From Tetrahymena thermophila SB210 (Eukaryota > Ciliophora > Oligohymenophorea > Hymenostomatida > Tetrahymenidae), in NCBI RefSeq assembly GCF_000189635.1, contig NW_002476174.1:186001-250000 (forward strand): DNA of 64,000 nucleotides. The letters are read 5' to 3'. A program made the position numbers and the translations under genes. Positions 24,804 through 60,240 of the stretch are shown piece after piece; the stretch's first letter is position 1, and every line of letters starts with the position of its first letter. Below the pieces are notes generated by a model. It did no database searches, was not told the origin of the DNA, and saw only the letters and a program-made list of their open reading frames with translations.

Positions 24804-27506
24804 ATGAATGTTAAAGATATATCTCATAGCTCAGGATAGTCCGGAACCACCGGATTGCTTTCGACAAAAAAGAAAAAGAATGCCATTTATATTAAGAATA
24901 TGTATCTGATTCGTGAATGCATATATAAAGGATAATTTCACAATACATATAAAGGTAATTAATTTAAATTTGATAAAAAATAATTGACAATGGCATCTAA
25001 TTATCAATATTTTGAATCTATTTTGCATTATTTTTGCGCTATTTTTACTTTATTTTAGACATTTTCTAATTTAATTTTTTTTATAACAATCTTAGGATTT
25101 AATAAAATTAATAAGTAGCCAGTGATTATAAAGATGGTAAACTTTTGTTAAAATTATTTAAGGAAAAAGATATATATAATAATGTATAATATAAATTAAT
25201 AATAGAGTAACCAGTATTATGACCATATTAGCAATGAAAATAAAATGGTTAAGCTACTGAAAGAAGGTAATGATAATTTACACTTTCTTCAATCATAACA
25301 TACAATTTTTTTAGCTCCTTACTTACTTCGATTTACTGAAATAGAATTATGTATATAAATACATATTGCTATAGAATTTATTTTAATAAATAGTATCATG
25401 CACGCCTAAAATTTTTCATGTAGGGGAAGAAAAAATAAATGGAACTAACTATTTTGTAAAGTAAGCTTTTAAAATTAATTTTCTCAACATACTTATTTTA
25501 GATAGTGTGTGCTAAACATTAGTATTTAAAATTTGCTTTCTTAATTTTTAAAAAAAATAAGCAAACAAAAATACTGCCTTGTTTTAAGAAGTTAAATAAA
25601 CAATATTTACTGTTTTTTCAATTAATAGAATCACAGAATCTTATGGCCCAAGTCTCAAAATTCTATTCTCACTCATGAAAAATAATTTATCTATAAGTAC
25701 AATTTGCATGTTTGGAATTGCAATGGTATAATTTAATCAAATTTTATAAAAAAATATTTATTAATTATCATCTAATTTATGTAATAGCTAAATGTTCTTG
25801 AAGAAATACATTCTGTCAATATAGTTCACCGTAATTTAAAGCCAAAAAAAATTGTCATTCATAATGATTTAAAAAGCACATAATTATATCTTATTGACTT
25901 TAAATATGCACGAAAATACAAGCACAAAAATGGCTAATTGGTTCGCTATAATGAAAATAATCGTATTATGAATAAAATTTTCTGCAACAAATTCTCTAGC
26001 ATTGGTACTCACCTTGGCATAAGTAATAAATTTTGCAATTATAATATAATTTTAAAACTCTAAAAGATAGTTTAAATTATTAATAATATTTTAACAAATA
26101 AATTAAAATAGCTCCATCTAGAAAGGATGACTTGGAATCTCTGGGTTACATATTAATTTATTTAACACGAAAAGGTATTTATTAAATCTTTTTATATTTT
26201 TTTGATATAAACTAAGTGTTAATCAAATACTGAATATACCTTACAGATTTAATCATTACTTTTATTCATTAATTTTCAATGAATTTTTTCAAAATGAAAT
26301 TTAAAAAAAGTATATTTATCTCTTCAAAATTTTTACATATGATAAACAATTATTTAATAAATTTGTCTATTATCAATAGGGAACTTGTTTGGTAGTAAAC
26401 ACTTTAAAACAAGAGAAGAGAAGCTAAAATATTATGAAGAGTAAAAGTTATCTCTTATTCCTGAGACTTTGGGAGATTTGCCTGCTGAATTTGTAAACTA
26501 TTTAAATTATATTAAGTCTATGAATATCATGGATCACCCTGAGTACGATGTTTGGAGAAAAATATTTAAGCAGCTATTCTTAAAATCTGGTGGATAACTA
26601 AATGATTACTAATTCGAATGGGTATGATTTACCTTGAAATTAGAGATCGCAGAATATTTTTAATTTGAATGGAAACTTCAAAATATATTCTAATATTTTT
26701 GGTTTACTTAATTTTACATTCATTTTTTTAATAGAATATTTTATTTAGAATATATTCTGTGAGATCATTGTTAAAATAAACATTTATTTATTTACTCTTT
26801 ATTTATTTAAAAGGCATTTAAAATAAAAAATGAAATGGTTTCCTAATATGGAAACTCTTTTCTTTAGGATTTAGACACCCCAAACGCTCTTTCAAACAAT
26901 TAAAAAGATGCAAATTCTAAATTTTCATAGAATTATAATGAAAATGAGGAAAAAAGCAAAGACGTTACATTGACAACAAATAATGCTAATCCAGAAGAGA
27001 CCACTGCATTTCAAACTAGAGAATTGAAGTAATCTGATACTACCATTAGTGCTCTACCTTAGAATCATAATACTTAGGAATAGGCTTAGAATAATCAGAA
27101 TTAGGTTACTAATGAAGCACAAGAATCATTAGGAGCAGGAGTATCCAATTACTACTATGGTCCAGTTGAAATAGATATTACTGATATTTAAGCCAAACAA
27201 ACAATTTAAAGTAATATGACATTTGGTCAAGACTCTGAAGTTAGAAATCAAGTATAGCAAAATAATAATAATGGTAACAATGGTTCTATCATTGATAATT
27301 TTAGTAATTATAATAAAAAATCTTAATTATAATCTTCATAACATTTGAATGCTTCTCAACATTAAATTAACAATTCTAATTACTCGACTGATGACTTAAG
27401 TATTTGCGATGATGAAACATAAAATAGTTTATACAGTTAGCTTTCACGGCACAATAATATCCTGATGCAGGAGCCATTCTTTTTTAAATTCAAGTAATAT
27501 GATTGA
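24804..27506 (+). CDS. CK1-family pseudokinase, 533 aa
   Basis: Ten exons: 24804-24954, 25096-25136, 25206-25266, 25315-25350, 25424-25460, 25629-25725, 25788-26022, 26112-26174, 26380-26621, 26868-27506; all phases agree (534 codons). The order of blocks is that of casein kinase 1: a degenerate glycine loop (YKGQFHNTYKG), the beta-3 Lys in VIIK (Lys63), GPSL (115-118), the catalytic loop, the activation segment THLGI, then RKDDLESLGYILIYL and a C-lobe ending YQFEW. Three catalytic features are lost: HRD is HRN (155-157), the loop K-P-E-N is K-P-K-K, and DFG is DFK (178-180). The beta-3 Lys and the DFG Asp remain. A 213-residue Gln/Asn/Ser-rich tail follows. It is therefore predicted to be inactive or strongly atypical, perhaps a scaffold or substrate-binding CK1 relative. 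CK1 families are greatly expanded in ciliates, which makes such divergence plausible. Confidence 0.88.
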
Positions 27507-31128: not shown

Positions 31129-33069
31129 ATGAGACAATTTTTAAAGAGTCTAGCAGTCCTATAAAAGTCCTCTAAATTAAATAGCAATTTTGGTAGTGTA
31201 AGAGAAAGCCAACCAAAAGAAAAACTGAGCGATTTTGAAAAATCTTAAAATGTATACTTTTATGATGAATGTAAATAGAAAAAGTATGATTCACCAAATT
31301 TAATTAAATAATTTAGGATAATATGATGAGACTTGTTGATGAACTTGATGAAATGCATTTAGGTATCTTATCTTGAGCTAAATTAGCCCTTATTTTACTA
31401 TTTTTTAAAGTTACTTCTAACATAAAATGCAAGGTATCAAAATATAAAAACAGCAGGGGCTAAAAACAAAAACAGATTACAGTAATGCAAATGAAGAGTT
31501 ATTTAAGCAATTTAAATCTAATTCAGCAAACGAGGCATTTAATCTTATTTAAGATCACTTAAAGATCTTTTATCAACAAATTAAGGAAGAAATAGTATAA
31601 ATTTATAGAATTATATTAAGCGAGCTTTATTCAAATTTATTTTTCAACATAAAAATTTAGCTTAAATCAGATCATGATTATGTGAATAAAATATCTGGAC
31701 ACTACTATTCAAAAGAAGGAAAGTTAGTGAGACCTTCACTCAATTTCTTATTATCTTAAATCTTGTTTGATGGCACAACATAAGAATTCTTTGAGAAAGT
31801 AATAAATAACAAATAATATTTAATTTCAATATCAATCAACACTTTCAAAATCAGTTTCTTTAAATTTACAATTATTATTTAAAATAAAGAAAGATTTAGT
31901 AGAAAAATAAAGACTTTGGGCTGCCGTTATTGAGGTATTTTTAAAGCAAATTGCATTAATTAAATGATTAATATTTAAATAAAATAGAATATTCACGTTT
32001 CATCTCTAGTGCATGATGATATTATAGGTAGATACATATAAGTATTACAAATAATTTAGAATAAAATAATATTCTTTATGTAGATAATGCATTTACAAGA
32101 AGAGGTTTAGAAACTGCTCATGTAAAATTTGGACATAGAGAAGCTGTTTTTTCAGGGGATTATATTATAGGAAGATCAGGACAATAAATTTCACGTTTTA
32201 ATGATATTAGGATGTATTAAATATATTCCCATATTATGGAAAACCTCACTCATGTAAATTCTTTTAAGTATTTTTATTGGTGGGTTATTCTAATCATAAA
32301 TAAAAAACATTTTTTAGGGTGAAATTAACTAAGCTAATTCAAAAAGAACCTATAAATATGATTTGGATGAAATAATTAACTAATACATATTAAAGACCTA
32401 TTACAAGACTGCTTCTTTAATGGCATTTAGTGCTTAAGGAGTTGGCATAATTTTGAATTAGGATTTCCATAACTAAGAATGCTTATTTAAGTTTGCTCAG
32501 CATCTAGGTATCAGCTTTTAATTAGCAGACGATATGCTTGATTATACTAGTGACTCTGCTTAACTAGGTAAAGCAGCTCTAGCTGATTTAAAAGAAGGTA
32601 ATGTAACAGGACCAGTGTTATTTGCCCTTGAAGAAATAGATGGTACTGAAGAACACAGATAAATAACAGCTATGCTTTAAAAGCATCCTAAAGGACTAGA
32701 TGATAACTAAGTTAAAATAGGTAGATATATACTTTAGCATTTAAACATACATTTATATTTATATTTTATAAATTTTTTAATGTTATAAAATAAACAAAAA
32801 ACATAAATTTTTCTTTCAATTACTGTAAAATTAAAAATTAAAAATTTTAAATTGAACAAAATTAAACTCATTTTTTATGCAACCAAATAGTTGACTAATT
32901 AGTTAAGAAAACATATGGCTTAGAAAAAACAACTAACTTAGCACTTATTCATAGTTAAAGAGCTTTAGAAAATCTTCAAAACTTGAAAGGAGTAAAAGAT
33001 ATTGAAAAAAAAGATGCTTATAAGAGCTTAAATTATTTGTTAATGAAGATCATAAAGAGAAAGAGTTGA
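31129..33069 (+). CDS. COQ1: Polyprenyl diphosphate synthase, 434 aa, probably mitochondrial
   Basis: Exons 31129-31251, 31317-31362, 31434-31594, 31661-31798, 31890-31934, 31988-32027, 32084-32253, 32318-32720 and 32891-33069; 435 codons with all phases consistent. It is a trans-isoprenyl diphosphate synthase, which chains isopentenyl diphosphate onto an allylic primer; in this family the long product is usually the ubiquinone side chain. Visible motifs: GHYYSKEGKLVRP near residue 125, the first Asp-rich motif DDIID (181-185) followed by NAFTRRG, the GDYIIGRS helix, and the second motif in FQLADDMLD (Asp312, 313, 316). The N-terminus (MRQFLKSLAVLQKSSK) is basic, hydroxylated and acid-free, as in mitochondrial presequences. 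An intron splits the first DDxxD codon. Length fits COQ1/PDSS1. The short-chain (geranylgeranyl) alternative is less likely given the N-terminal extension. Confidence 0.9.
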
Positions 33070-37134: not shown

Positions 37135-38712
37135 ATGGGTTAGAGTGCTTGCTGCATAAAAAATAATGACGATGAAAACCTTAATAAACAGAAAAAGAAG
37201 AATTTAAATCCTTAAAGTAAAGAGAAAAATGATGCTAGTGATTTAATGAAAAACAAACATGCCAAGTAGAGTCTTTCATAATCTTATGATTGTAATATAC
37301 CAGTGTATGAGAGGATAAGTGAAATAGAAACGAAAGAAGCACCCACTGCTAGCAAAACTTAAAATATAAAGAGTTAAAAAAAGAATAGCCCATATAATTA
37401 TACAGCTCATTATTCCTCTGAAGGAAACATACCAGATATGCAAATTGATAGCTAAGAAAATTATAAGGATTAGCTGATTGAAGATCCAAATAATTCTCCT
37501 GCTACTGCTGCTTTAGGATAAACTACTCCAAGAAATTATAGGAGAGATATTTAAGGGAATTAGAATTTTAAAACATTAAACCCTGAAAGAGTTTTAGATT
37601 TAAGTAATAATGCTAATAATCACCCCAACTCTTATAATAATTAAACTTTTTAGCACAATTAGCTTAGTCAAAGTAATATTTCTGACCCAACTGCTACCTA
37701 AAATTATAATGTAGCTAAACCTAAGAGCCCGTATACTATTAAAATGGAAGAATTTTAAAGGGTAAACTTAAAAAATATAAATAACCACTACTTAAATTTA
37801 AAAAATAGTGTTAGTAAATCAAAGTAAAGCTAGTAAAAAAGGCTATCTGACGCTCAACATTAAAATTTGTAAAAAAGAATAGAAAGAGAATTGGCTAGTA
37901 TTGTCAAGTCTATTGAATGTGATGAAGAAAAAGGAGGTGTTTTTTTTGCTTATGATGAATCAAATCTCTAATATATAAAAATTTTGATCACAGGAGCAGC
38001 TAACACTCCCTTTGCATATGGAATTTATGTTTTTGATATGTTCATCCCTGATGATTACCCTATTAATCCTCCAAAACTTAATTTCTAATCAACCTCAAAA
38101 GGTACTATAAGATTTTCTCCTCTACTACCCACAGACGGTAGAGTGTGCTTGAGTCTACTTAATATACATAATGGATAATAATTAATAGAGTCGGAGTAAT
38201 GGAGTGAATACACCTCTAACTTAACACAGGTGATACAAACAATTTAAAATGATATTCTCAATAGTGACTTATACTATTAAGAGCCAACCACTAACTACAA
38301 CCCTAATAAAAATAATAACGATTCAAGTTTAAATGTAAGTGACATGTACAACTAAGGATATTAAAATGTAGTTAGATACGCAAATATAGTTCATGCAATG
38401 GAAGAGTCGATTAAGTAGACTGATGGAAATTTTAAGGAATTTTCTAAATTGATTCAAACCCATTTCTCTCTTTTACAAAGCTAAATTATAGCCTAAATAA
38501 ATAAGTGGATAAATGAACAGTAAAATATAAATGAAGAAGATATAAAGCCTCTTTACACAGGAATAGTTTCTTAGCATAATCCAGAGATAGCTAAATCATT
38601 GCAAAATAATGGATTTAGTAAATAGGCATAAAACTAGCTTAAAAATTTATAGCAATAATTCAAGAAATTGAATTCAACCTTTAAAGAAGGTAAATAGTCT
38701 GTACTCAGTTGA
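37135..38712 (+). CDS. UBE2O/BIRC6-like ubiquitin-conjugating enzyme, 525 aa
   Basis: Single exon, ATG 37135 to TGA 38710-38712. Residues 1-245 are Ser/Asn/Gln-rich and probably disordered. The protein starts MGQSACCIK: Gly2 with a nearby Ser and two Cys is a good N-myristoylation plus palmitoylation signature, suggesting membrane anchoring. A UBC domain spans about 250-405: an N-terminal helix (RELASIVKS), the strand-rich core with YGIYVFDMFIPDDYP and PPKLNF, then the active-site segment GRVCLSLL with catalytic Cys338 and a downstream W..W-type helix region. The HPN motif of classical E2s is replaced (RFSPLL), as in the UBE2O/BIRC6 class, whose RFNPN/KVCLS block it resembles. It should accept ubiquitin from E1 as a thioester. 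A helical tail rich in Gln follows. It is convergent with the coiled-coil gene downstream. Confidence 0.88.
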
Positions 38713-48313: not shown

Positions 48314-49366
48314 TCATCTTCTTGGAGGAAAAGGTGTAAAAGTTTTGAAGTTGATGCCTTGGTCAGGTGTATTACCAAGTATTTCATTGATTCTTTTTTC
48401 AACTTCTGGAGTAATCTTTTTGTAAAGTTGAACACTTTTTACTGACTCATCTAATTACTCTACTCTTGAGCATCCTGTTATGGCAGTAGAAACATCTTTA
48501 TTAGCGATAACCCAACTCATGGCTAGCTGTGTTTAAGACATTCCTAATTCCTTAGCCAAAGCTTCAAGGTTTCTTAAAGCCTGTAATGTTTTTTCTCTTT
48601 TTCCTTCTCCGAAGAACTGATCCCATGCAATATCAACAAAATCTTAAAAATTAGAAGAAGCCTTTCTAGATCCTTAAGGGATATTGCCATCATTGTACTT
48701 TCCTGTGAGGAAGCCATAAGCTAAAGGACTCCAAATAGCAGCACCCATTTTATGTTTATCGAAGAGACGAACAAAATCTGCTTCAAATCTATCTCTGACA
48801 AGCATATTGTACTAAGGTTATTCAACTGAGGGTTTGATAAGATTTTTTTCAGCACAAACTTCTCTGACTTCATAGATTTAAGCAGCACTCCATTCAGAAG
48901 TACCCCAATAGTGAATGTAACCTTCTTAAATTAACTCTGTAAAAGTACGAGCAACTTCTTCAAGAGGTGTTTCATGATCAAATCTATGGCAAAAAACTAC
49001 ATCTGCATAGTCTAATTAGAGTCTCTTTAGTGAATTCTTTACACCTTCTTTGATGTGCTTTCTACTTAAACCTATTTGATTCACTTTAACCTTATGTCCA
49101 AATTCAGCACCCAAAAAAATCTTAGTAGAAACAACTAAATCTTCTCTAGGAACATCGAGAGCTTTAATAGCAACTCCGAGCTACTTTTCAGCTTCGCCAA
49201 GTCCATAAAACTCTGCAGTATCAAAGAAATTAATACCCAAATCCCAAGCTTTTTTGACACTTTCAGTGGTTAACTTTTACTAATCGGGATTTGCACTTGA
49301 AAATCCATTACCAAAACTTATCACTGAAACTTTCAATCCAGTGTTACCTAATAATCTATACTCCAT
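48314..49366 (-). CDS. Aldo-keto reductase, Kv-beta (AKR6)-like, 350 aa
   Basis: Single exon, ATG at 49366, TGA at 48314-48316; length is typical of the family. It is an NADPH-dependent TIM-barrel oxidoreductase. The start MEYRLLGNTGLKVS is the standard first strand. The catalytic tetrad is complete: Asp49 and Tyr54 in FFDTAEFYGLGEAE, Lys82 in STKIF, and His127 in VVFCHR. The sequences LSRKHIKEGVKNSLKRLQLDY, YWGTSEWSAAQI, WSPLAYGFLTGKY and ITGCSRVEQL match the AKR6 (voltage-gated K+ channel beta subunit) group more closely than other AKRs. Animal Kv-beta proteins have Asn where this has His127, so here ordinary reductase activity is expected. Whether it docks on a channel cannot be told from sequence. 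G+C and codon use are higher than average for the window, suggesting good expression. Confidence 0.93.

Positions 49367-57661: not shown

Positions 57662-60240
<2,579 letters not shown>

Follow-up and report, generated by a model that had tools for sequence, protein, structure and literature searches.

A pair of Tetrahymena thermophila genes probably encodes catalytically dead CK1-type pseudokinases with a basic active site

The gene CKW, located at positions 24804-27506 on the plus strand of the 64-kb stretch of Tetrahymena thermophila DNA analyzed here (the window), consists of nine exons and encodes a predicted CK1-type pseudokinase of 531 aa. Judging from the sequences, CKW is probably (rough probability 0.68) one of an old, selected pair of catalytically dead CK1-type pseudokinases, which lost catalysis before the two genes split and have been kept since; the claim of a selected pseudokinase is based on two genes of one genome, CKW and its paralogue CKX. 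The CKW product is probably a binding or regulatory protein.

CKW was read using code 6, in which TAA and TAG encode Gln and TGA is the single stop codon, also used by CKW. The coding length is 1596 bases including the stop, and the exons, all on the plus strand, are linked by eight GT-AG introns. Exon 1 (24804-24954) encodes the N-terminus and the glycine loop, exon 2 (25096-25136) the beta-3 strand VIIKM, exon 3 (25206-25266) helix aC, exon 4 (25394-25460) beta-4/beta-5, and exon 5 (25629-25725) the hinge and GPSL. The catalytic loop, the DFG position, and the activation segment are located in exon 6 (25788-26022), exon 7 (26112-26174) carries the kept CK1 motif RKDDLESLGYILIYL, and exon 8 (26380-26621) encodes the C-lobe as far as FEW, where the kinase domain ends. 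Exon 9 (26868-27506) contains the stop codon and the tail, residues 320-531, in which N, Q, S, and T together make up 47%. The preliminary description of this DNA had given a low-complexity tail of 213 residues; the N/Q/S/T-rich tail is present, its length is 212 residues, and "low-complexity" is a slightly strong term for a sequence with 29% N+Q and an entropy of 3.86 bits. The GC content is 22-33% in the exons and 10-20% in the introns of CKW, and 22.8% in the window, where no ATG-started ORFs of at least 150 codons occur under the standard code and 95 occur under code 6. Rfam and tRNA scans of the 64-kb window gave no matches.

A first, hand-made model of CKW (566 aa) was rejected because two AT-rich stretches between beta-3 and beta-4 did not fit CK1. 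With 25137-25205 and 25267-25393 spliced out, the frame is kept, the alignment with CK1 has few gaps, and the intron positions match ones seen in other CK1s of this genome. A splice search reproduces the revised model, with a query that was itself derived from it. When the paralogue was used as the query, the seven introns modeled within the domain were all recovered, exon 3 included. With human CK1 delta as the query, five of the seven were unchanged and the beta-3/aC stretch was joined otherwise; exon 3 was omitted, and Glu52 with it, which makes the region between beta-3 and aC the least secure part of the model. The splice models require GT-AG, and the presence of these sites is therefore no independent evidence.

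According to the phmmer analysis against the PDB, the best matches of CKW are rice CK1 (E 7e-43) and human CK1 delta (3.6e-42), with VRK1 (2.6e-20), TTBK1 (3.8e-16), and VRK3 (1.4e-07) so far behind that VRK and TTBK proteins were rejected as close kin. The CK1 hallmarks GPSL (25645-25656, plus strand) and RxDDLES are present. Both the span and the CK1 fold given in the preliminary description were thus confirmed, with nine exons under code 6, a CK1 as the top PDB match, and GPSL, THLGI, and RKDDLES in place. The sequence is nevertheless distant: its identity to human CK1 delta, to rice CK1, and to each of 20 further CK1s of T. thermophila does not exceed 33%, and the activation segment has a 3-residue insert relative to CK1s. 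Instead of SIN, which CK1 has at the APE position, SIG is found in CKW (25998-26006, plus strand) and SLG in the paralogue, while Asn occupies the last position in 16 of the 20 other CK1 genes. The Pfam Pkinase score of the spliced protein is 33.9 bits at a cut-off of 31.7, which suggests that kinome counts made from Pfam scores may miss such genes. Intron positions (25,1), (39,0), ~(61,1), (112,0), and (188,1) are those of the CK1 gene L061 (one of them lies one residue off in the alignment), and four of these five also occur in L044, L045, L049, and L051. The introns common to CKW and CK1 genes favor descent from an intron-rich CK1 gene.

The functional roles of the positions numbered below are presumed ones, assigned from known CK1 structures. 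Three altered motifs had been named in the preliminary description, and all of them, HRN for HRD, KPKK for KPEN, and DFK for DFG, are present in the spliced model. HRNLKPKK is encoded at 25827-25850, with Asp128 replaced by Asn at 25833-25835 and the Mg-binding Asn133 by Lys at 25848-25850; in DFK (25896-25904), Lys occupies the Gly151 position. The number of changed features had been set too low, since the glycine loop, SIN, and positions 36, 85, 171, 178, and 213 are also altered, and the CK1 motif is better given as KPDN/KPEN (Asp in 10 and Glu in 8 of the 20 other CK1 genes). The glycine loop is degraded to YKGQFH (24924-24941; GSGSFG in CK1), and YKGxF is also found in the paralogue. In CK1 delta numbering, the alignment shows the N-lobe changes Gly16 to Tyr, Gly21 to His, Ala36 to Ile, and Leu85 to Tyr, of which positions 36 and 85 belong to the adenine pocket. 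Asp128 to Asn, Asp132 to Lys, Asn133 to Lys, and Gly151 to Lys follow in the catalytic and DFG region, and Lys171 to Asn, Arg178 to Lys, Asn183 to Gly, and Trp213 to Phe further on. The beta-3 Lys and the DFG Asp had correctly been described as retained: Lys38 (25131-25133) and Asp149 are present in the alignment, together with Gly18, Phe20, the aC Glu52 (25236-25238), His126, Arg127, Lys130, Phe150, Ser181, and Asp194/195 (all features on the plus strand). Of the HRD Asp, the KPxN Asn, and the DFG that mark an active CK1, CKW has Asn, Lys, and DFK, respectively. A pseudokinase is defined by the loss of at least one of the beta-3 Lys, the HRD Asp, and the DFG Asp (as worded in PMC4718504), and in CKW the HRD Asp is Asn.

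The window is part of contig C318 of a genome of 101 Mb in 445 contigs, taken as that of T. thermophila; a piece of its telomerase matches the chain of PDB 6d6v, a T. thermophila structure, at 124 of 124 residues. This genome was searched for relatives, and a single close one, CKX, is located on contig G000:C283 at 33.0-35.6 kb on the minus strand. Modeled by the same splice rules, CKX is open throughout, encodes 644 aa, and has seven GT-AG introns; its six domain introns are identical with either CKW or human CK1 delta as the query, and both queries find the exon matching exon 3 of CKW. Its motifs are YKGNFY, VVIK, HRN, RPRK, DFK, and SLG. Relatives with intact HRD and DFG had been named as evidence that would point to sequencing errors and refute the idea; in the one genome checked, the nearest relative carries HRN, xPxK, and DFK. 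The kinase domains of CKW and CKX are identical at 147 of 293 positions (50%), the N-termini at 12 of 26, and the tails at 50 of 206 aligned residues. Five of the eight CKW introns lie at the same domain place in CKX, one is three residues off, one is located just after the domain, and the remaining one (25461-25628) is missing in CKX; the in-domain intron position (208,1) is shared by the two genes and absent from the 20 other CK1 genes.

Over the 293 aligned domain codons, CKW and CKX differ at codon positions 1, 2, and 3 in 122, 85, and 171 cases, a coding-type pattern, with pS 0.77 (saturated) and pN 0.35. Because synonymous sites are saturated and non-synonymous ones are not, neither sequencing error nor fresh decay is likely; sequencing error or recent decay of CKW was rejected, as CKX is open with the same losses and coding-type substitutions. 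The same changes in a distant second copy indicate that CKW is probably functional, though not as an enzyme, and not a broken gene, although with synonymous sites saturated the pairwise comparison cannot prove present-day constraint on each copy. It is also highly improbable that both genes are decaying or unexpressed pseudogenes whose stops are still to come. The long stem of the pair in the tree (1.54 changes per column) and the fast tails would agree with decay, and with the one stop codon of code 6 open frames persist more easily. Against it, both kinase domains are free of TGA from end to end through introns at matching places, the codon-position differences are of the coding type at saturated synonymous sites, and shuffling of the first 319 codons of CKW left only 8 of 2000 sequences free of in-frame TGA, with a mean TGA count of 6.15.

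For comparison, 20 CK1 loci were modeled from 83 genome matches, and L015 and the gene of the window were added; the remaining match rows were further exons of modeled genes, the window gene, or matches with E 1.6e-10 and worse. At least 22 CK1-type genes (the 20, CKX, and CKW) are therefore counted, as a lower bound, with many weak rows coinciding with Pkinase places, vs. the published number of 19 CK1 kinases for T. thermophila given in the consulted part of PMC3341644. The HRD Asp, the KPxN Asn, the DFG Asp, and the DFG Gly are each present in 19 of the 20 other genes, and the beta-3 Lys and the aC Glu in all 20. The preliminary description had called CKW dead or non-canonical as a kinase, with its fold conserved, and this reading is supported, CKX having the same HRN/xPxK/DFK and 19 of the 20 other CK1s keeping the HRD Asp.

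The sole HRD exception among the 20 is L043 (L019; G000:C176, ~799.7-801.0 kb, plus strand), a CK1-type gene with CRN for HRD, NPGN for KPDN, and GLG for DFG. It is closest to the canonical L039 (61% identical), and the first tree places it in the L039/L052/L055 group; the AU test did not reject its grouping with the CKW/CKX pair (p 0.138). L043 is possibly an independent second loss of catalysis. Other deviations were observed in single genes. L049 (L035; G000:C283, ~46.8-47.9 kb, minus strand), which lies ~11 kb from CKX, has KPSD (Asp for the Mg-binding Asn), a GQGSFC loop, and THLE, and keeps HRD; L040 has DLG and L052 has DFA for DFG, and both keep HRD and KPDN. A weak CK1 delta match at G000:C322:458269-458688 (plus strand; 28% over residues 108-244, E 1.6e-10) is perhaps a divergent CK1-like gene.

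In the phylogenetic tree, CKW and CKX form a pair with support of 100/100, and this also holds after removal of 43 active-site columns, when the stem is 1.37 changes per column. The base of the tree is not resolved and no outside kinase group is included, so the tree does not settle whether the stem lies within or beside CK1. The branch lengths are 0.78 for CKX and 0.39 for CKW, i.e., CKX evolves ~2 times faster, which was counted against the main explanation.

The active site was compared at 43 ATP/catalytic-site positions, chosen by us from general knowledge of CK1 structures. Over these positions the net charge is +5 in CKW and +7 in CKX, and the 22 other CK1 rows compared (the 20 genes of the genome plus human and rice CK1) range from -5 to 0, while over the rest of the domain the pair (+11 and +9) lies within the range of other CK1s (+6 to +17). 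Random sets of 43 positions matched the charge shift in 62 (CKW) and 15 (CKX) of 5000 trials; with a stricter set of 17 motif positions (glycine loop, HRDxKPxN, DFG), random sets of 17 matched its shift in 9 and 11 of 5000, respectively. The shift of the whole CKW domain (7.55) is close to that of the site (7.5). Residues common to CKW and CKX and absent from the 22 other rows occupy 35 positions, seven of them in the site (G16Y, S17K, I23T, M80K, D91I, N133K, and G151K), vs. 5.2 expected (p 0.24). No significant excess of CKW/CKX identity was found in the site, 24/43 (0.56) vs. 115/235 elsewhere (Fisher p 0.51); this value is at the low end of the range 0.53-0.79 seen in 44 pairs of similar overall identity among 19 genes without L043, and six further pairs involving L043 give 0.40-0.62. 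As neither site identity nor pair-specific residues are in excess, it is the charge that stands out and not special conservation. By these measures, the site of the pair is neither decaying faster nor retained better than the rest of the domain.

The charge raises the doubtful, though not negligible, alternative that the pocket is conserved as a basic phosphate receptor, in which lysines at Asn133 and the DFG Gly, with Lys17 and Lys80, replace Mg2+. On binding its ligand, which could be a nucleotide free of metal, a phosphorylated segment, or an inositol phosphate, the protein would switch its shape. Consistent with this, Lys17, Lys80, Lys133, and Lys151 are identical in CKW and CKX and found in none of the 22 other CK1 rows, the site charge of +5/+7 compares with -5 to 0 and accounts for a shift about as large as that of the whole CKW domain, and human MLKL, which binds ATP solely in the absence of cations, can draw on a Lys of its HGK motif for this (from the available text of PMC4718504). 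The adenine pocket, on the other hand, looks filled (A36I/V, L85Y/M, G16Y, G21H/Y), the lysines may merely pair with Asp149 and Glu52 and stabilize the fold, and the pair-specific residues are not enriched in the site. The basic pocket in two copies thus has two readings, a lock formed by lysines paired with Asp149 and Glu52 or a metal-free site for a phosphorylated ligand; a dead, folded regulator or scaffold is favored.

The pseudokinases SelO and SidJ have acquired new chemistry. A polyglutamylating bacterial pseudokinase is named in a title cited in PMC7586955. That CKW is a non-canonical active enzyme, either a weak kinase or a transferase of other chemistry on the kinase fold, is nonetheless improbable. 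Lys38, Glu52, and the DFG Asp149 are retained, and HER3 with Asn at HRD autophosphorylates in vitro according to the excerpted text of PMC4718504; that pseudokinases with Asn at HRD may keep weak activity was counted against the main explanation. In CKW, however, the catalytic Asp, the Mg-binding Asn, and two glycines of the loop (Gly1/Gly3) are lost jointly, which argues against phosphotransfer, and degraded glycine loops are taken to support predictions of inactivity in the VRK3 paper (PMC2639636, in the part drawn on here).

For the favored pair of dead pseudokinases, the following course can be proposed. The ancestor of CKW and CKX would have been an intron-rich ciliate CK1 gene that lost catalysis ahead of the split, both copies being retained afterwards. 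The two proteins would perform no phosphotransfer, and canonical Mg-ATP binding would be lost as well, given the bulky Tyr16, Ile/Val36, and Tyr/Met85 and the missing Asn133. That the domain is folded is supported by the retained Lys38-Glu52 pair and by the conservation of the C-lobe; this pair and the new lysines near the DFG Asp may hold the domain closed, much as in an active kinase. Held in this way, the domain could serve as a binding surface, and the protein could compete with active CK1s or their substrates, anchor them, or be their allosteric partner. The tail of CKW might direct localization.

Among 20 neighboring ORFs of the window scanned against Pfam, five gave matches: a polyprenyl synthetase (31964-32986, plus strand), a ubiquitin-conjugating enzyme (37135-38712, plus), an aldo/keto reductase (48314-49366, minus), and pieces of an MCM helicase (57662-60240, plus). 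None of these Pfam-matched ORFs hints at a pathway shared with the pseudokinase.

CK1 is generally regarded as a constantly active kinase. To our knowledge, the CK1-group pseudokinase with a solved structure is the vertebrate VRK3. Among the matches listed in the literature search, no title or abstract opening described a ciliate CK1 pseudokinase; the subscription literature lies mostly outside, so that absence is unproven. One CK1-type enzyme of Tetrahymena is reported with radial spoke 3 in the accessible part of PMC12399478, and no link to CKW was seen here. If the main explanation is true, CKW and CKX are a second case of a CK1-group pseudokinase, in two copies with the same altered site, in a genetically tractable ciliate. 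They would form a natural experiment on a CK1 fold without catalysis, with the charge-swapped pocket as either a stabilizing lock or a new ligand site.

With the CK1 family, CKW shares the fold (by sequence), GPSL, THLGI, RKDDLES, the C-lobe, and intron positions, and it differs from the family by HRN/KPKK/DFK/YKGQFH/SIG, the changed W213 and R178, and the basic active site. MLKL belongs to a kinase family other than CK1. Like CKW, it has a catalytic-loop Lys and altered metal ligands and offers a precedent for metal-free ATP binding (excerpt of PMC4718504), but its Lys is that of HGK, whereas the Lys of CKW replaces the Asn of KPDN. HER3 (ErbB3) has the same replacement of the HRD Asp by Asn and thereby also counts as a pseudokinase under the PMC4718504 definition; it is a receptor tyrosine kinase that keeps the Mg-binding Asn and the DFG Asp, is without the aC Glu, and binds ATP with one Mg, as far as the consulted part of PMC4718504 describes it, whereas CKW has Lys for that Asn and keeps the Glu. 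The precedent within the CK1 group is the pseudokinase VRK3, which has Asn at HRD, keeps its Lys-Glu pair, fails to bind ATP, and has been proposed to provide a binding surface (in the part of PMC2639636 drawn on); the bulky pocket residues of CKW suggest a similar mode of action. CKW shares with it the Asn at the HRD Asp, the degraded glycine loop, the Lys-Glu pair, and the kinase fold (same excerpts, PMC2639636 and PMC4718504). The pocket of VRK3 is acidic (PMC2639636, in part) and that of CKW basic, and the match of CKW to VRK3 (E 1.4e-07 vs. 7e-43 for CK1) places it away from the VRKs; the two pseudokinases are probably of separate origin.
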